Shown: piece by piece, positions 3,416 to 25,799 of the stretch | Layout of the letters: the number at the start of each line of letters is the position of its first letter | Position numbering within the stretch: the first letter of the stretch is position 1 | DNA from: a virus | Direction: 5' to 3' (one strand) | Virus record (IMG/VR): IMGVR_UViG_3300010410_000006 | Coordinates: 1-32,635 of that record | Length of the DNA stretch: 32,635 bases | Translations under genes and position numbers: made by a program | Notes under the pieces: generated by a model | Seen by the model: the letters and a program-made list of their open reading frames with translations, nothing else | Databases searched by the model: none | Told to the model about the DNA's origin: nothing

Positions 3416-4609
3416 TTAAGCCTTCTGTTGAAGCACTTTGATTGCTTCAGGAAGAATTAGCTTTGCATCAAGTCTTTGTGATGCCAAGAAACCAACCTGA
3501 CCATTTGCTGCATAAAGCTCATTCAGACGCTTAAAGGTTCTGCCTTGACGATCAGCAATCCAGTAATAGTTGAAATCTCCAAAGAGAATGGTCTTAGCTC
3601 CTGCTTCTGCTGTTGGCATATACTGAGACGTAATCACTGGACGATTCAAAATCGTATCCGGTGTTCCAGCCTTAAGGGAAGGCTGCCACAAGTATTGTCC
3701 CTGTCCATCTTTTAACTTTCTAATTTTCTTAACTGTTGCATCGTTAACAAGGAAGCTGGCGTTCTTTCTATATGCCGTCTTCAAGCTATGATATAGATCT
3801 AGCACCTCATCAAGGGTAATAGCTGTAGTACTTGCTGCAGTAACGCCAAGGCTAGCACCACCTGTCGCATGAAGAAGTCCAGTCGGTTTGCTGCTTGCAT
3901 CTCCTGTAAGAAATGCTTCTTCTTCCGCTGCACCGATTCTTCTTGCAAACTCAGCTGCAATGTAGGCTTCAAGATCAAAATAACTGTCATTAAGAAGTTC
4001 CTCAGACACTTTTAGCATGGTCCCAAGTTTATATGCAGACAAGGTTACTTGAGTGAAAGCTTCATCACTTTCTGTAAAGGCGCTTTCTTCATCCATCCAT
4101 GCAGCGGAACCGTGACTTGCTACTACAGGAATCTTTCTATCTCCATAGCTGGTCGTAATCACATTACAAAGGTTCCTAAGCACATTTGCTTCTTCAAGAG
4201 CCTGAATCAGTTGGTTTTCATACTCATCTGGTACAAGATAACCACCTTCAGAATCAGTTCCCACTTCAAGGGCGTTTTGTACAGAAGGGTTCATCTTATT
4301 TCTCATGGCGCCCCAAAAGGCTGTGTGATAAGCATCCGATGCCCTACCCACTTTTTCTTTTTTCATTGTTTCCGGTCTACCAGAAAGAGGATTCGTGACA
4401 GCTGCAGAAAGTTCTCTGTCCATCATCTCTTGACGTTCAAGACGCTCAATTTCTTTTCCAAGACTGACAACCTCATCTTCCATCTTTTCATAAACTGCAT
4501 TGTCTTCCGGTTTGATCAGGCCATTTTCCTGACGATGCTCATCAAGGAATGTCTTCGCCTGCTCCCAAACCTTGGCTCTTTGTTCTCTAAGTTCTTGAAT
4601 TTTACTCAT
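3416..4609 (-). CDS. major capsid protein, HK97 fold
   Basis: A 397-aa major capsid protein. The ATG at 4609 has GGAGG 8 nt upstream; the longer frame to 4624 starts inside that ribosome binding site. The first ~95 residues are charged and coiled-coil (EQRAKVWEQAKTFLDEHRQE...), the delta/scaffolding domain that the prohead protease removes. The mature part begins around the KKEKVGRASDAYHTAFW segment and includes GTDSEGGYLVPDEYENQLI and the ELLNDSYFDLEAYIAAEFA helix, typical of HK97-family capsids. The gene directly follows the ClpP-like protease, so cleavage and assembly are coordinated. Confidence 0.92.
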   Translation of the reverse strand: MSKIQELREQRAKVWEQAKTFLDEHRQENGLIKPEDNAVYEKMEDEVVSLGKEIERLERQEMMDRELSAAVTNPLSGRPETMKKEKVGRASDAYHTAFWGAMRNKMNPSVQNALEVGTDSEGGYLVPDEYENQLIQALEEANVLRNLCNVITTSYGDRKIPVVASHGSAAWMDEESAFTESDEAFTQVTLSAYKLGTMLKVSEELLNDSYFDLEAYIAAEFARRIGAAEEEAFLTGDASSKPTGLLHATGGASLGVTAASTTAITLDEVLDLYHSLKTAYRKNASFLVNDATVKKIRKLKDGQGQYLWQPSLKAGTPDTILNRPVITSQYMPTAEAGAKTILFGDFNYYWIADRQGRTFKRLNELYAANGQVGFLASQRLDAKLILPEAIKVLQQKA

Positions 4610-19765: not shown

Positions 19766-22205
19766 TTTCTTCCTGATCCTGGTCATTTACCTGACTCTCA
19801 GCCCTGCAAAATGTCTTTTGATTTCCGTAAATCGGGAACCTCGTCTGGCCTTGTTTATTGCCTGAATAAGTTTCCCATCCACCAATGCGCATAAGCACTC
19901 CGATGATTTCAAAAGAATCTTGCCTTCTCAAATTTGCTTTGTCTTTACCTAAACACTCGCACCAGATTTCATGGACACATACTTTTTCTCTTTTCTTAGC
20001 ACCAATCGGTACTGTATCACCAAATTCACTTTCTCCCGCTAGAAAACTTCTTCTTTCATAAAGATCCATATTGTCCCATTTTTCTGGCAGTAAAGTTTCA
20101 ATGTAATCGCTGATAAGTCCTTCTCTATCATCTGCTTCCATCGCATCTCTTTGTTCTTCAAATGCAATTTTCTCTTCTTCGGCTGATAATATTAAGGTTT
20201 CACCATCTCGATACTGCTGAAGTGCTTCAGCCCATATCTGATCAACGTCTTCCATTTCCCACACACTTTTCTTTCCACGATTGACCCTCACCGGCCAGAA
20301 CCTTCTATTTCCTGTAATGTCTCTTAAAAAGCCACTAATGTTATTAGTGCTGCCCACGACAATGCATTGTCTAGGATGATTTTCAACATTAATACCGTAG
20401 CTTTGTCTAAATTTATCGTCTGTTCTTGTAATAAAGGATTTTACAGTCTCTACATCCATTTTTCGAAGGCCTGCAAGTTCTCCCAGTTCTAAAATCCAAT
20501 AACCTTGAAGCTTCTCTGCACCAGCCTTATCTCTCATATCTGAAACAGTTAAACTATCTGAAAACCACTGTCCACCTAGCTTGGCAAAGAAAGTTGACTT
20601 TCCAATTCCCTGCGGACCATTAAGAACTAAAATGTAATCAAATTTTGTTCCAGGTTCATAAATTCTTGCTACTGCTGCTACCATAGTCTTTCGCATTACT
20701 GCCTTGGTGTAGTTGTTATCTTCTGCTCCTAGATAATCGATAAGGAGCTTATCCACTCTCTTGGTTCCGTCCCAAACCGGCAGCCCCTCAAGGTAATCTT
20801 TAATGGGATGAAACATTCTCTCTGAAGCAGCTGTGATAAGAGCGTCTTTAACTTTAGCCGGTGACCAAATGCTGTAATGTCTATCAAGATACATCTTAAG
20901 ATTTGAATGATCTGAATCATTCCAACCACCTTTGACTTGTTCCCACGGAAGTGGCTCATTAACATCCATTAGCTGCTTCATCTGGTTATAGGCGATGCCC
21001 TTAAGTCTAGGATCATGCCTCATTATTATTAAGATGTTTGTTGGTGTATCCTTTACGGATCCGTTTTTATTAACTTCTAGCTGAAGTTGCCATGTAAGGT
21101 CATCGTCTTTTTCATCTTGTTCGCTTACATCTTCCTCAGATTCACCCTCATCTTCTGCTTCAAACTCCTCTTTCATCTCTTCAGCTCGCTCTTTGGCCAG
21201 TTGCTTTTTCACCTTTTCATCCTCTGTACAAAACTCAAGCATTGCCTTTACCGATGGAATCTGTTTTCTCTCGTCTGCATTTTCATCAAGGTCTCCAAAC
21301 CGGTGAATCCTCACAAGGTCAAATGCGTTACAAAGATGACCGCAAGCCGGATCCGTCGCATGGTGTGAATAAGCGTACTTGCTGCTATAAATGACAACCC
21401 CTGCAGTAGAGTCAGCTGGAATATAGTCATATCTCTCCGGCATTACACTTGGCTGATAGACATCTTTTAGATATTTTTCAATAGCGTCTTCAATGGTATA
21501 GCTCCTACAGAATGCTCCTATAAGGCCCTCTTTTCTGATTGGATCCGCCTGTTTTTTCATCAATCTATCCAAAAGCTTTTTCTGCCTCGATGACACTGGC
21601 CATGATGATGAGTCCTGCCATTTGTCGTACTGGTTTAAAACCGTATCCGGGATTAAGAATTCTCCCTTTATCTCTCTGAAAAAATACTCTCCATCGCTAG
21701 AAGTGCTAGGCCAGTACATAAGCCTGTTTGGTTCATAGGTCGTATCATCAAAAATCTCTATATCAATTTCCTTAGCGAGCATTCTGCTGATAGCCTGGTA
21801 CTCATCTGCTGTAACCGCCCTTGATAGTGGAATGATGAGTCTAAGTCTTGGCTTTTCCGGTGTATGTTTATGGGTAGAGTAAATGCAGGAAGCATATCCG
21901 TATAAAATCTCCATATTTTCAGCTATGGCTATAGCATCATCTGCATGATCTATATCCAGACTTAGCATGGAACGATTAATGACGCTGGCTTTCGTTCTTC
22001 TTCCATCTTTAAGCTGCCCGGCTACGAAGCCGCCCACATCTTTTACATTGTCTTGCTGGTATTTCTTCATTTTCAGGTACTCTTCCTGAGTTTCGCTGGT
22101 GACGGTAGTTTGGGAGAGCTTTTCTACAAACTCCTCCCAGGACACCGCCTGTTGTTTCCAAAATTTATCTTTACGGCTGTTGCCTGTTGAAATAATAAAT
22201 TTCAT
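19761..22205 (-). CDS. VapE-like primase-helicase
   Basis: An 814-aa replication protein of the virulence-associated E type. The N-terminal ~250 residues look like an archaeo-eukaryotic primase-like domain (MLSLDIDHADDAI with the acidic pair; PRLRLIIPLSRAV). A very acidic linker follows (EEFEAEDEGESEEDVSEQDE). The C-terminal SF3-like ATPase has Walker A LNGPQGIGKSTFFAKLGG, Walker B ILELGELAG, a sensor-like VVGSTNNISGFL and the arginine-rich ITGNRRFWPVRV. It probably opens and primes the origin whose repeats begin at its own stop codon. GGAGG precedes the ATG. Confidence 0.88.
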   Translation of the reverse strand: MKFIISTGNSRKDKFWKQQAVSWEEFVEKLSQTTVTSETQEEYLKMKKYQQDNVKDVGGFVAGQLKDGRRTKASVINRSMLSLDIDHADDAIAIAENMEILYGYASCIYSTHKHTPEKPRLRLIIPLSRAVTADEYQAISRMLAKEIDIEIFDDTTYEPNRLMYWPSTSSDGEYFFREIKGEFLIPDTVLNQYDKWQDSSSWPVSSRQKKLLDRLMKKQADPIRKEGLIGAFCRSYTIEDAIEKYLKDVYQPSVMPERYDYIPADSTAGVVIYSSKYAYSHHATDPACGHLCNAFDLVRIHRFGDLDENADERKQIPSVKAMLEFCTEDEKVKKQLAKERAEEMKEEFEAEDEGESEEDVSEQDEKDDDLTWQLQLEVNKNGSVKDTPTNILIIMRHDPRLKGIAYNQMKQLMDVNEPLPWEQVKGGWNDSDHSNLKMYLDRHYSIWSPAKVKDALITAASERMFHPIKDYLEGLPVWDGTKRVDKLLIDYLGAEDNNYTKAVMRKTMVAAVARIYEPGTKFDYILVLNGPQGIGKSTFFAKLGGQWFSDSLTVSDMRDKAGAEKLQGYWILELGELAGLRKMDVETVKSFITRTDDKFRQSYGINVENHPRQCIVVGSTNNISGFLRDITGNRRFWPVRVNRGKKSVWEMEDVDQIWAEALQQYRDGETLILSAEEEKIAFEEQRDAMEADDREGLISDYIETLLPEKWDNMDLYERRSFLAGESEFGDTVPIGAKKREKVCVHEIWCECLGKDKANLRRQDSFEIIGVLMRIGGWETYSGNKQGQTRFPIYGNQKTFCRAESQVNDQDQEEI

Positions 22206-22293
22206 GGTGTCCTCCTTCTTTCTTTATTGTTAGTGCGTCTTACTTGAATATCAAAATCTAATAATGAGATGCTTACCTCTCAAGCATTTGGCA

Positions 22294-25176
22294 TTAATCC
22301 TTCTGATAAAAATCGCATTCATAGCCATCTGCATTAAGTGGTAGTCCTTCGGACCATTTAGTACTCTCACTCATAATGCTGCATATTTCATCTACACTGG
22401 ATTCTCCCATTGGTACTTCGCAGACTACCTCGTCATGCACATGAGCAACGATAGAAAATCCTAATGAATCAATCCTTAACATGGCTTCAGCAAGTAAATC
22501 TCTTGATGCAGCTTGCACGATATTCTCTACAATTTTCGGTCCATAAGTCTCGATGCGTTCCCACTTCCTGTTGGTTCCAATACCTTCATAAGTCAGTCCT
22601 TCTCGCCCGAATTTATTTATCATGAGCTTTGGCTTTACATACACAAGATTTCTCCCTGAAGGTAGAGTAATAAACAACATCCCGCTTTTATAGGCGAAAA
22701 CAATCCCATGGGTTCTTGTTCTGGTTCTCTGCTTCACTGCTTTAATGGCCATCTTGTCTACATCCCACCAAAACTTCACGATATGCCGGTTGGCTCTGCG
22801 CCAATTATCAATAAGACCTTGCAGCTCATGTTCTTCAACTCCCATTTCCAGTGCGCCCATGGATTTCAAAGCTCCTACTCCTCCGCCATAACCACAGTTG
22901 TGCACTAGCTTCCCTGATACGGTAAAACGATGATGTCTTCCGGCATCTCGTATGTCATAAACTCGAGTCTTGCCTTGATTAACCGCCAGTTTTTTCTTTT
23001 GTATCTCACTGCATCTTCTGCCTCTTTGATGATTTGTTCTCGACTCATTCCGGCTCCTAATTTCTTTTTCACAACACTCCGTGTGTACGGCCAATAGATC
23101 TGCTCCCATCGTGTTAACAGTGTTCTTTCTCGATTGGCTTGATTTACACTCCTTTTGACAAATCGCAGATTGTCTTTTTCGTAATGCCCCATGTTGTTGA
23201 TTCGATCTAGTTCCAGCTCTTTTTTTACATTCTCCACATTGGATAAAATCCAAAGACCCGCTTCTAAAATAGAATTGAACCTGAATTCTATCCCTCGCGC
23301 TCCGTACCGGTGATATAGAGGATGATTGGCTTGCTGACATCGCCGCTTCGCCTCGGTCAAACGTCGATCGAGCCATTTGGGGATTTGCCTTGGTCTGGAA
23401 CATCGTTGACATCCCTTTGATTTCCCCGTTCTTAGATTGCCAAGATGGGTCCATTGAATTTTTTTGCAACTGTTGCATTGAGTCAGTACATAACAATGAT
23501 TCCATTTCTCGTTCCATCGTTTCTCCGGGCTTATAATTGTCACCCAGCCGTATCTCTTTCCAACCATCTCCGGTTTGTATGAGATGTGCGCCGCTGGCGG
23601 CGGCTTCTCCAAATTGTACCGGCCTCTGTTTCCCTTCAATCCATACGAGATGATCTTTTGTTGCTTTAAGTCCGTCATATTCAATCACTTCTTTCATTCC
23701 TTTATAAATCAGTCCGCTATGACCTACCCAGCTTTTTCCGTCCCACAATTTGTGGGCTTTAGTAACATGCTCTATGGGTACAAGTCCTTTATTCGTTAAA
23801 ACTAATTCGCCTTCTGCTATACAGGCGAGTTCCGAAATTTTACCTTTCTGTCTCAATGGACTACCCTTTTTAATCTCATCCATAGGAACATGAAACATTT
23901 GTGATGCAGAAGCTTCATAGATTTTCCCATGGGATGCAAACACATCAAGTCTCCATTTTTCGCCTGCAAGCCAGGATAGGACCCTCGCTTCAATAGCTGA
24001 AAAGTCAGCAACGATAAACCGATGACCTTCTTTTGGAATAAAGGCAGTTCTTATCAGTTCTGATAGAACACCCGGTGTGTTGCCAAATAGCATCTGCAGA
24101 TCATCAAACCGTCCTTCTTTCACTAAATCTCTTGCCAGTTTAAGATCTAGAAGATGGTTCTGTGGGAGGTTTTGGAATTGTACCAGCCTACCTGCCCACC
24201 TCCCTGAACGATTGGCTCCATAAAACTGGAACAGTCCATGAACCCTGCCATCTGAGCACACTGCTCGTTCGATGGCCTCATACTTTCTGACACTGGTCTT
24301 AGCCATAAGAAGCCTAAGTTTTAGTGCTTCTTTGACCTCACCATCTGTTTCGTCTACCAACTCTTTAACGTTTTTCTTAGATAAACTTTCAACTTCAACC
24401 CCTCGCTGTGATAACCAGTCCTTGAGCTGAGATACGGAATTGGGATTTTCAAGTCCAGTGAGTTCATAAGCCTTTTCTGTTGCTGCAACTGTAAATTGTC
24501 TATCACAGGATATAGCCTCATCAACTAAGGCCATGTCTGCCTTAATTCCTAAATCATTGATTCTCTGATCCAGCTCGTAAAGAAGTTGCTCAGACTCAGG
24601 CACCTGATAATCCTTAATCTTCTTTCTGATTCCTAGTTCCACTTCAACGTCTCTGATGTTGTACTCTTTAAAGAACTTCCATTTGTCCAGCGCATGCTCT
24701 GGCAGATTTCTAGTTCTTCCACCATTAGCTGCTGTCGCTTTACAAGGAAGGCAGAAATATCTAATGAGAGATTTCCCCTCAGACATCTTTTGTGAATCAA
24801 GTCTTAGCACTTTGCCTACCCCTTCAAGATGAAGAGGAAGTCCAAGTAGTGCTGCCTGAACCTCACTACAACGCCATGATGACGGGTCAAGGTAGATATC
24901 TTCTTCAAGTATTCTGCTTATATATCTCATGAGAGCTACTCTCTCAAAGTTAGCGTTAAAAGCAGTCTTTATAATATCTTCACTGAGAATTGCATCAATA
25001 ATTTCTTTTGAAAGCTCTTCGCCACTGGCTAAATCAATTAGCTCTACTGGTCCTTCATCGACGCTGTAAGCAAAGAGCAGAATGTCAAAGTTTGGGCTAT
25101 CCGTATAGCGGTATACTCCGCACTTTCTTAGGTCTATGTCAGAAAACGTCTCAATATCGATTGACAAAATCTTCAT
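22294..25176 (-). CDS. family A DNA polymerase with inserted intein
   Basis: A 960-aa precursor; about 651 aa after splicing, the normal size for phage Pol A. The start is MKILSIDIETFSD at 25176 with AAAGGAG 10 nt upstream. An N-terminal 3'-5' exonuclease is intact: Asp7 and Glu9 in SIDIETFSD, FNANFERVAL, and EYNIRDVEVE. The polymerase part has motif A (VADFSAIEARVLSWL), motif B split by the intein (LRQKGKISELA | CGYGGG, i.e. R-x3-K-x7-YG) and motif C (AHVHDEVVCE). The intein covers residues 452-760. Without splicing the enzyme should be inactive, because the O helix is broken. Confidence 0.92.
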   Translation of the reverse strand: MKILSIDIETFSDIDLRKCGVYRYTDSPNFDILLFAYSVDEGPVELIDLASGEELSKEIIDAILSEDIIKTAFNANFERVALMRYISRILEEDIYLDPSSWRCSEVQAALLGLPLHLEGVGKVLRLDSQKMSEGKSLIRYFCLPCKATAANGGRTRNLPEHALDKWKFFKEYNIRDVEVELGIRKKIKDYQVPESEQLLYELDQRINDLGIKADMALVDEAISCDRQFTVAATEKAYELTGLENPNSVSQLKDWLSQRGVEVESLSKKNVKELVDETDGEVKEALKLRLLMAKTSVRKYEAIERAVCSDGRVHGLFQFYGANRSGRWAGRLVQFQNLPQNHLLDLKLARDLVKEGRFDDLQMLFGNTPGVLSELIRTAFIPKEGHRFIVADFSAIEARVLSWLAGEKWRLDVFASHGKIYEASASQMFHVPMDEIKKGSPLRQKGKISELACIAEGELVLTNKGLVPIEHVTKAHKLWDGKSWVGHSGLIYKGMKEVIEYDGLKATKDHLVWIEGKQRPVQFGEAAASGAHLIQTGDGWKEIRLGDNYKPGETMEREMESLLCTDSMQQLQKNSMDPSWQSKNGEIKGMSTMFQTKANPQMARSTFDRGEAAMSASQSSSISPVRSARDRIQVQFYFRSGSLDFIQCGECKKRAGTRSNQQHGALRKRQSAICQKECKSSQSRKNTVNTMGADLLAVHTECCEKEIRSRNESRTNHQRGRRCSEIQKKKLAVNQGKTRVYDIRDAGRHHRFTVSGKLVHNCGYGGGVGALKSMGALEMGVEEHELQGLIDNWRRANRHIVKFWWDVDKMAIKAVKQRTRTRTHGIVFAYKSGMLFITLPSGRNLVYVKPKLMINKFGREGLTYEGIGTNRKWERIETYGPKIVENIVQAASRDLLAEAMLRIDSLGFSIVAHVHDEVVCEVPMGESSVDEICSIMSESTKWSEGLPLNADGYECDFYQKD
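22897..23823 (-). other. intein (309 aa) in DNA polymerase motif B
   Basis: The intein begins with Cys1 (codon 23823-23821) in CIAEGELVLTNKGLVPIEHV (block A) and has block B GLKATKDHLVW with the TxxH residues Thr55 and His58. It ends with block F VYDIRDAGRHHRFTV and block G GKLVHN, followed by Cys+1 of the extein. All splicing residues (Cys1, TxxH, terminal His-Asn, Cys+1) are present, so splicing should work. Between blocks B and F, the intein frame holds ~190 residues of Ser/Arg/Gln/Lys-rich sequence without recognisable endonuclease motifs; the real endonuclease is in another frame of the same DNA. Confidence 0.88.
22905..23567 (-). CDS. HNH homing endonuclease nested out of frame in intein
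   Basis: A 220-aa protein in the +1 frame relative to the polymerase, completely inside the intein DNA. The start MVGKRYGWVTIISPEKRW (ATG 23567) is typical of phage HNH homing enzymes. Residues 31-34 and 53-56 are CNSC and CQRC (zinc finger); RYGARGIEFRFNS at 87-99 and ELDRINNMGHYEKDNLRF at 119-136 are the hallmark of the HNH group with D-R-I...H-Y...N-L-R, followed by NQAN at 142-145. GGAG lies directly against the ATG, so initiation is unclear; alternatives are ATG 23678 or coupling to polymerase translation. It ends with TAG at 22907, eight bases before the splice junction codons. Both frames are open for 220 codons. Confidence 0.82.
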   Translation of the reverse strand: MVGKRYGWVTIISPEKRWNEKWNHCYVLTQCNSCKKIQWTHLGNLRTGKSKGCQRCSRPRQIPKWLDRRLTEAKRRCQQANHPLYHRYGARGIEFRFNSILEAGLWILSNVENVKKELELDRINNMGHYEKDNLRFVKRSVNQANRERTLLTRWEQIYWPYTRSVVKKKLGAGMSREQIIKEAEDAVRYKRKNWRLIKARLEFMTYEMPEDIIVLPYQGS

Positions 25177-25265
25177 GGGCTTACCGCTCCTTTCTTTGAA
25201 TACTATGGGTGAAGGTGACATGCTTTAACTCTGCCACCCACCCAGTACATACTCCTAGCATCAAC

Positions 25266-25799
25266 CTATGCCAAGAAGTCATCGTCTTCTTCAATCTCAA
25301 AGTCATCTTCGGCTCTACTTTTACCACCCAATGGTTCTCCATCTTTGAGCTTCTGGACATTTCCAAGGCCTGCGGCAATTCCTCTGTTTCCGTTAACATT
25401 GAAGGCATACATGTTGAGACTAACCTTCCCATAGCACCCTGAGTAAACTTCACTTCTATCCATTATCGTTTGAATCTTTCCATCTACGACTTGAGGTGCA
25501 TTCTTTGAATTGGAATTGATGAAATAGCACCCTTCATATGCCAGATCATCCGGTCTATCGATATCGCCATCACGAAGAGGGGTTTTAAGATTTGCAGGAA
25601 TCTTCCCACCAAACTTTGGTGCACCTTCCTGCTTTGCTGCCTCGATAGCTTTCATAACAGCATTGACAGTTTTCTTATCCGCCTTAGGGATAATGATGGA
25701 AACACTATACTTTGGATCACTTCCGTTTATGCTTTTAGGCTCAAATAAATTCGTGTAACTTAATCTTCCGGGTACAACTACTTTCGTTTCTTTACTCAT
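25266..25799 (-). CDS. DUF2815 protein, ssDNA-binding protein-like
   Basis: A 177-aa protein of the DUF2815 family. It starts MSKETKVVVPGRLSYTNLFE; KYSVSIIIPKADKKTV and the GCYFINSNSKNAPQVVD segment fit the OB-fold core. The C terminus is highly acidic (RAEDDFEIEEDDDFLA), as in single-stranded DNA-binding proteins that recruit partners through an acidic tail. It is encoded between DUF2800 and the DNA polymerase, so it probably coats ssDNA at the phage fork. GGAGG precedes the ATG. Confidence 0.85.
   Translation of the reverse strand: MSKETKVVVPGRLSYTNLFEPKSINGSDPKYSVSIIIPKADKKTVNAVMKAIEAAKQEGAPKFGGKIPANLKTPLRDGDIDRPDDLAYEGCYFINSNSKNAPQVVDGKIQTIMDRSEVYSGCYGKVSLNMYAFNVNGNRGIAAGLGNVQKLKDGEPLGGKSRAEDDFEIEEDDDFLA

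Follow-up and report, generated by a model that had tools for sequence, protein, structure and literature searches.

A conserved dual-coding intein in a phage family A DNA polymerase, with an HNH-family gene in the +1 reading frame

The DNA analysed here (hereafter the window) is the complete virus record IMGVR_UViG_3300010410_000006 of IMG/VR, 32,635 bases in length, the minus strand of which encodes a family A DNA polymerase containing an intein. Within the intein a second open reading frame (ORF), in the +1 frame relative to the polymerase, encodes an HNH-family protein. An earlier note on the same sequence had described this interval as open in two frames and had proposed a dual-coding selfish element from which the endonuclease could be made as a free protein. 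The features of the locus are listed below, using the names of the intein splicing blocks A, B, F, and G which we take to apply.

22294..25221, minus strand: family A DNA polymerase precursor (exteins and intein), 975 amino acids (aa), an ORF without stop; Pfam DNA_pol_A 8.2e-20, PHROG 17 DNA polymerase 2.5e-137
22897..23823, minus strand: intein, 309 aa from C1 to the terminal Asn, followed by Cys+1; polymerase residues 467-775, site SELA/CGYGGG; model matches solved inteins, and relatives have empty sites
23764..23823, minus strand: splicing block A (CIAEGELVLTNKGLVPIEHV), C1 at 23823; C1 in 51/51 distinct copies
23632..23667, minus strand: splicing block B (KATKDHLVWIEG, TxxH); TxxH in 51/51
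22918..22962, minus strand: splicing block F (VYDIRDAGRHHRFTV), overlapped by the HNH frame
22897..22917, minus strand: splicing block G (SGKLVHN), last Asn ending at 22897; HN end in 50/51
22905..23678, minus strand: HNH-family endonuclease gene nested in +1, start ATG 23678-23676, stop 22907-22905, 257 aa; PHROG 374; conserved in relatives
22963..23565 (approximate limits), minus strand: doubly read stretch, predicted to be disordered filler in the intein frame and nuclease in the +1 frame on the basis of model confidence (pLDDT) and two-frame substitution rates

The alternative frame is open over 23684..22905, which corresponds to 259 codons counted from a TTG, or to 257 and 220 if the ATG at 23678 or that at 23567 is taken as the start, and it lies in +1 of the polymerase frame (offset 1537, 1 mod 3). 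The third forward frame contains 21 stops and the reverse frames contain 12, 13, and 12. The polymerase frame contains none, compared with 13.9 expected from 2000 synonymous shuffles of the window HNH codons, none of which reached zero. The earlier description of the two frames was borne out: the polymerase frame continues unbroken through 975 aa with blocks A, B, F, and G in order and no net frameshift, and the HNH gene overlaps block F (and also block B if it starts at ATG 23678).

The intein carries the features of class 1 inteins, namely a cysteine at position 1, the TxxH motif, an HN end (in the window followed by Cys at +1), and a Hint fold in the structural model. The 51 copies counted above are the distinct window-type inteins of at least 300 aa, window included, whose two ends both matched the search patterns; since the N-end pattern begins with C and the C-end pattern requires N before C, S, or T, the counts for C1 and the terminal Asn are partly preset. 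In the model, built from an alignment of 39 sequences, some 80 residues at the N-terminus and 30 at the C-terminus reached pLDDT 84 to 91, and values fell below 50 over residues 86-117 and 125-277. The best matches of the model in the Protein Data Bank (PDB) were inteins, with NpuDnaE (4kl5) on top (E-value 1.2e-3, probability 1.00). Judged from these sequence and model features the window intein is of class 1 type and is predicted to be self-splicing. It differs from a canonical full-length intein in that the HNH sequence lies in the +1 frame and not in the intein frame, and from a split intein in that a single continuous ORF of 975 aa is present instead of two separate extein-intein ORFs. 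An intein length of 309 aa was found in 46 of 55 distinct inteins, a uniformity expected if two frames bar insertions and deletions (indels).

Relatives were collected by scans of viral and genome collections and of phage records, giving 185 classified loci (L001-L187 minus L042, an empty allele, and L044, the window itself), 142 of them distinct. A copy was classed as in frame if its HNH frame extended at least 100 codons upstream and at least 80 downstream of the match without another open frame. By this definition 82 of the 142 distinct relatives are out of frame inside an open polymerase/intein frame, five are nested in this way on a single side and 55 not at all, and none is in frame on both sides. 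Among the one-sided copies L089, L091, and L183 stop at a contig end, L078 is rearranged, and in L043 the polymerase is in pieces. HNH frames extended on one side only occur among the non-nested copies, and ‘not nested’ is thus not equivalent to ‘single-domain’.

The relatives fall into three groups. Group A3, the window type, comprises 53 nested and three one-sided copies, including Streptococcus and Gardnerella phages, Allofustis, Selenomonas, Anaerotalea, and metagenome-assembled genomes labelled Clostridia. Group A1 (13 nested, one one-sided; Salmonella Jerseyvirus, E. coli Dhillonvirus, Vibrio 97.13, and Pseudomonas MR14) has the HNH sequence in the other frame (-1), and EBPR siphovirus 2, outside the 142 counted, is nested in the same manner. 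Group A2 (16 nested, one one-sided, and 55 not nested, from the best 80 of 112 scan matches; among them APSE-1, Caulobacter RW, and Shewanella SFCi1) has it in +1 but elsewhere in the polymerase, in a second region. Inspection of the junctions places the insertion at ELA/CGY in A3, at the same site or four residues upstream (GKA/CELGLGY) in A1, and near TYGGK/CENI or a few residues on in A2. A single insertion could give both alternative frames only with additional indels, and two polymerase regions are occupied, so that at least two and probably three independent events would be required. The non-nested A2 members suggest free-standing phage HNH genes as the source of the nested ones.

Conservation of both frames was examined across these groups. 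The HNH frame is open over at least 235 codons in 50 of the 51 window-type inteins. The stop test on the host frame covered copies with at least 140 matched codons and an unbroken HNH frame; in these the host frame was open in 49/49 A3 copies (10.0 stops expected from synonymous shuffles), 13/13 A1 copies (3.2 expected), and 14/14 nested A2 copies (4.0 expected), that is in 76/76 nested copies, vs. 0/49 non-nested A2 copies (mean 13.6 stops). The non-nested relatives of one partner thereby provide a natural control for a long overlapping gene pair. Two inteins at the same loci with an in-frame endonuclease (one annotated as LAGLIDADG, the other, in L024, recognised as such by eye) carry 17 and 31 stops, and 18 and 25 stops, respectively, in their other frames.

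The ratio of nonsynonymous to synonymous change (N/S) was calculated in both frames for hand-chosen subsets of 26, 8, 12, and 16 loci, skipping pairs more than 97% identical. For the HNH frame, counting those changes which alter the host frame, the ratio was 0.29 in A3 (26 sequences, 324 pairs), 0.41 in A1 (8 sequences, 26 pairs), 0.51 in nested A2 (12 sequences, 66 pairs), and 0.57 in non-nested A2 (16 copies). The host frame gave 1.13, 0.80, and 1.14 in A3, A1, and nested A2, and 0.97 in the non-nested control. These values indicate conservation of the nuclease at the protein level, and in the A3 and A2 filler it is mainly the openness of the frame that is kept; the A1 filler may be under mild constraint. 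The most variable codon position shifts from the polymerase third position in HNH residues 1-20 to the HNH third position over residues 41-240. The comparison of substitutions in both frames which the earlier note had called for thus revealed purifying selection on the +1 frame, and of the two outcomes it had named as speaking against dual coding neither was encountered: the +1 frame is not broken in most homologs, and the endonuclease is not in frame in any of them on both sides. The two open frames are confirmed, and the sequence comparisons support a real, conserved dual-coding intein in the window polymerase.

The nested protein was searched against profile and structure databases. It matched PHROG 374 (HNH endonuclease, 1.4e-19) and PHROG 3377 (1e-13), had no Pfam match at E-values up to 0.1, and gave matches at chance level only in NCBIfam (E-value 0.23) and, by phmmer, in the PDB (one match, E-value 0.31). 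Two conserved elements were located in it:

23400..23477, minus strand: two CxxC pairs, probably a zinc site; the four Cys are invariant in the A3 alignment of 15 sequences
23133..23207, minus strand: HNH core from D158 to N182, numbered from ATG 23678 (DRINNMGHYEKDNLRF...NQAN), with Arg replacing the classical His

In the same alignment the D-R, Y, and N of the core are invariant. The earlier claim of a complete 220-aa HNH-type ORF therefore stood with regard to the two CxxC pairs and the DRI..GHYE..NLR..NQAN core, but an ATG further upstream is about equally conserved as a start (45 vs. 43 of 51 copies), and the classical His is an Arg. As the His of the first motif is absent, the protein is named here HNH-family and not a proven HNH nuclease. 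In a second-look fold comparison of its model, PacI (3ldy; Z 4.6, root mean square deviation 3.7, 82 aligned positions, residues 97-191) appeared among unrelated rows.

Candidate translation signals for the nuclease were the following:

23684..23694, minus strand: Shine-Dalgarno-like AAAGAAGTGAT before the upstream ATG, -6.7 kcal/mol, rank 12 of the 76 ATGs of the gene, weak in the window and of greater strength in many relatives
23565..23567, minus strand: alternative downstream ATG, the start assumed in the earlier note; ATG within one codon in 43/51 copies

In the underlying rank table 12 of 42 rows read at least one codon off the ATG, and the rank was used for the window alone. The upstream ATG is found within one codon of its place in the window in 45/51 copies. 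Many A3 relatives have a Shine-Dalgarno sequence such as AAGGAGGT about 8 bases 5' of it, within the intein motif K-E-V-I-x-Y. In a set of 71 rows, which kept identical copies, did not include the window, and was searched one codon either side of the ATG, the upstream ATG was present in 68, and the mean chance probability of an ATG with an equally strong Shine-Dalgarno sequence, given the intein residues and random synonymous codons, was 0.094 per copy. A2 copies often have GTG or ATG where the homology begins, some with a strong Shine-Dalgarno sequence, and in A1 copies the ATG is further upstream with a weak to moderate one. Internal initiation is therefore likely in the family, and the window itself has a candidate start.

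Homing proceeds in a cycle of invasion, fixation, and nuclease loss. With regard to invasion, 57 matches are uninterrupted across the window's extein junction, the best of them with 84.7% identity across 600 nt. A tree of exteins with 104 rows (58 without and 46 with an intein, near-identical rows merged; the extein scan supplied the best 80 of 142 matches, and 77 of 81 fetched relatives were readable) requires 15 changes of intein presence, six of them forced by well-supported branches. The +1 residue of the 77 readable intein-less alleles is Leu in 52 and Cys in 25. Ten intein-bearing copies listed all have Cys+1, and four of them have intein-less kin with Leu+1, which fits an arrival of the Cys+1 codon together with the intein; the close intein-less kin of the window have Cys+1. 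Between two related phages (L058 and L096) the splicing parts are identical at 368/372 positions and the adjoining upstream bases at 30/30, and identity further out is 226/270 in the next upstream bases and 268/300 downstream. With regard to loss, 555 nt are gone in L096 between two copies of a 9-nt repeat (ATCATCAGC), leaving a mini-intein of 124 aa. Other HNH-deleted forms are L014 (168 aa) and L028 (135 aa), and two Ruminococcus phages (L268 and L269) have, by eye, mini-inteins with a short linker and without HNH at the window's site. Taken together, the empty sites, the patchy distribution, Cys+1, and the HNH-deleted mini-inteins fit a homing cycle.

Some further observations were made at these loci. 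A second intein of 308 aa is present at another polymerase site in L024 (2566-3489), in frame and LAGLIDADG-like by eye, and L001 and L002 share a common single-nucleotide frame break at the position of this second intein. On one 214-kb IMG/VR contig, window-type inteins occur in two polymerase genes separated by about 67 kb (L011 and L012), the HNH sequences of which are 96% identical. The Moraxella phage Mcat20 (L271:2632-3564) has, by eye, an apparent mini-intein in a putative flavin-dependent thymidylate synthase.

Several points weigh against a functional, separately translated homing endonuclease in a mobile intein. Read by pattern, the classical His of the D-H motif is Arg in 39/39 distinct window-group contexts; it is likewise Arg in 36/39 non-nested relatives. 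The HNH model is of middling confidence (pLDDT 65.6); its poorly modelled stretches include the 18 N-terminal and 15 C-terminal residues, those that overlap blocks B and F. A Foldseek search with this model returned no PDB match at an E-value of 0.001 or better. The window's own Shine-Dalgarno sequence is weak, chance yields the start signal in 35 and 45% of shuffles in the near kin with similarly weak sites (L001 and L016), and the upstream ATG is missing in 6/51 and the downstream ATG in 8/51 copies. A stop occurs inside the matched HNH stretch in 11 nested loci, six of which (L059, L066, L067, L068, L070, and L074) have it only 12 codons before the match end. The polymerase frame is broken upstream of the intein in L001, L002, L019, and L022. 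In Salmonella phage SS3e (L043) the N part of the intein and the HNH sequence are in one frame, with the polymerase read in several pieces, and in L078 the upstream half of polymerase and intein (upstream of 3501) is replaced by another gene into which the HNH frame continues, which is either a rearrangement or an assembly chimera. The copies are moreover related, and the counts given here are not independent; as L058 and L096 come from related phages, their shared intein may also reflect recombination without homing.

Alternatively, the HNH frame might be a relic or silent passenger that persists through descent, its product in the window being no longer made or no longer active. This explanation draws on the weak start signal, the Arg in place of His, and the loci with a stop in the matched HNH stretch or a deleted core (L032, L105, L106, L109, and L110; L014, L028, and L096). 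We regard it as unlikely, since the frame is open in all but one of the distinct window-type inteins of at least 300 aa, N/S is low across the 324 A3 pairs, and the window copy itself is open and 92% identical to that of L016. It is quite improbable that the nuclease is made as a fusion to the N-terminal intein part by +1 ribosomal frameshifting from the polymerase frame and not by internal initiation. The weak Shine-Dalgarno sequence of the window would agree with this, as would the +1 position of the HNH frame in two of the three groups and its beginning near block B; however, A1 has the nuclease in the other frame, Shine-Dalgarno sequence and ATG are commoner in window-group relatives than the intein residues require, and A2 copies often have start codons at the homology start, some with a strong Shine-Dalgarno sequence.

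A chance second ORF, or paired sequencing errors shifting an in-frame endonuclease out of frame, is barely credible. No support for it was found in the window, and the single-frame arrangement of SS3e comes with a polymerase broken into pieces. The same frame relation recurs in phage isolates, prophages, and metagenome contigs, the polymerase frame lacks the 13.9 stops expected, and the in-frame inteins of the same data have numerous stops in their other frames; this candidate was rejected on the comparison across relatives and the shuffle test. An HNH-bearing group I intron has been reported in a phage polymerase gene (PMC3428280), but that a self-splicing intron carries the HNH gene here and the intein is illusory has a minute probability. 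The splicing residues are kept, no stop interrupts the frame, the two ends of the model are matched by solved inteins, and Rfam gave no intron at E-values up to 1, and on these grounds the intron was rejected. The RNA-family search of positions 22200-25300 gave one sub-threshold match, to a small RNA family.

Compared with canonical large inteins of the PI-SceI type, which have an in-frame endonuclease domain, the window shares blocks A, B, F, and G, an endonuclease region between B and F, and a probable homing life cycle, but its endonuclease lies outside the intein polypeptide in another frame. Fractured genes, reportedly described by Dassa and colleagues in 2009, are said to have a free-standing endonuclease gene placed between the two parts of a split intein, so that the nuclease would be uncoupled from the splicing polypeptide as in the window; there, however, the gene is interrupted, whereas here overprinting keeps one continuous ORF. 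In phage APSE-1 the GenBank record (AF157835, P45/P46) lists a nested ORF inside the polymerase intein as the coding sequence P46 without function. This ORF (L040:3931-4353) is in another frame as in the window, and the full open frame (3685-4353) belongs to HNH group A2; unlike the window it lies in the second polymerase region, and the record names neither intein nor nuclease. The record of phage Ent1 labels its polymerase intein as encoding splicing domains.

The nearest published case found is the ShiLan domain, a hidden HNH sequence that lies out of frame, and without a splicing domain, in mycobacteriophage methylases (Arsenault, Gosselin, Gogarten 2025, PMC11855218), reported in phage Applejack too (PMC12613952). 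It resembles the window in having an HNH sequence with zinc-finger motifs out of frame in a phage gene, an open host frame, and a patchy distribution. Its authors suppose leaderless translation, with neither a ribosome-binding site (RBS) nor a splicing domain detectable (PMC11855218), whereas in the window the nuclease is embedded in a complete intein splicing domain, and in many relatives a Shine-Dalgarno sequence precedes it. The window thus shows the out-of-frame HNH sequence and open host frame of the ShiLan type but has a complete domain predicted to be self-splicing. The ShiLan Pacc40 case, refetched, matched the nested HNH sequence of APSE-1 (A2) at 39.7% identity over 71% of the query. 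The same paper cites Gosselin et al. 2025 (bioRxiv 10.1101/2025.01.02.630785) and Gorbalenya 1998 for overlapping frames in actinobacteriophages (PMC11855218). In the literature searched, partly as excerpts, no description of an out-of-frame endonuclease inside an intein was found, and these two works (the latter entitled Non-canonical inteins), outside the comparison but with titles that point to uncommon intein architectures, may already describe it. The earlier suggestion that the arrangement had not been described consequently holds for inteins within that literature, but not for the wider theme, as an out-of-frame HNH sequence in a phage gene was published in 2025 and P46 was already listed. 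The novelty of the arrangement as such is uncertain; on the sources available, a known theme is widened here to three groups in two frames.

We consider it highly probable that the window contains a mobile phage polymerase intein, the homing endonuclease of which is overprinted and not fused. At the level of sequence, an intact class-1-type intein and a conserved +1 HNH-family gene across its middle are both shown to be kept open by selection. In the mechanism we propose, the whole gene would be translated in the polymerase frame, and the two Hint halves would assemble around some 190 residues of disordered linker and be excised by splicing to leave an intact polymerase. On the same mRNA, ribosomes would initiate at the ATG inside the intein motif and produce a free HNH nuclease, which would cut or nick intein-less polymerase genes near the ELA/CGY site. 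Repair would then copy the intein and short flanks, including the Cys+1 codon, into the cut gene, and after fixation stops or a deletion could abolish the nuclease part, with the splicing frame remaining intact.

For the family as a whole, a broader interpretation appears reasonably likely. Overprinted inteins would constitute a third architecture beside inteins with an in-frame endonuclease and split inteins with a free endonuclease gene. Mini-inteins of family A polymerases would have been colonised by free-standing phage HNH genes at least twice and probably three times, in one or the other alternative frame. Once inserted, these genes would be locked in place, as any stop or net frameshift would inactivate the polymerase. 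For the window's group at least, the conserved splicing motifs would supply the RBS and the start codon of the nuclease, the production of which would thus be free of splicing. Overprinting would offer a route for an intein to gain an endonuclease without evolving a fusion protein, and cutting would be uncoupled from splicing while the nuclease DNA is tied to an essential gene. Polymerase inteins labelled as splicing-only, such as that in the Ent1 record, can hide a nuclease in another frame, and the proposed mechanism is open to direct test in cultured phages of E. coli, Salmonella, Streptococcus, or Gardnerella.

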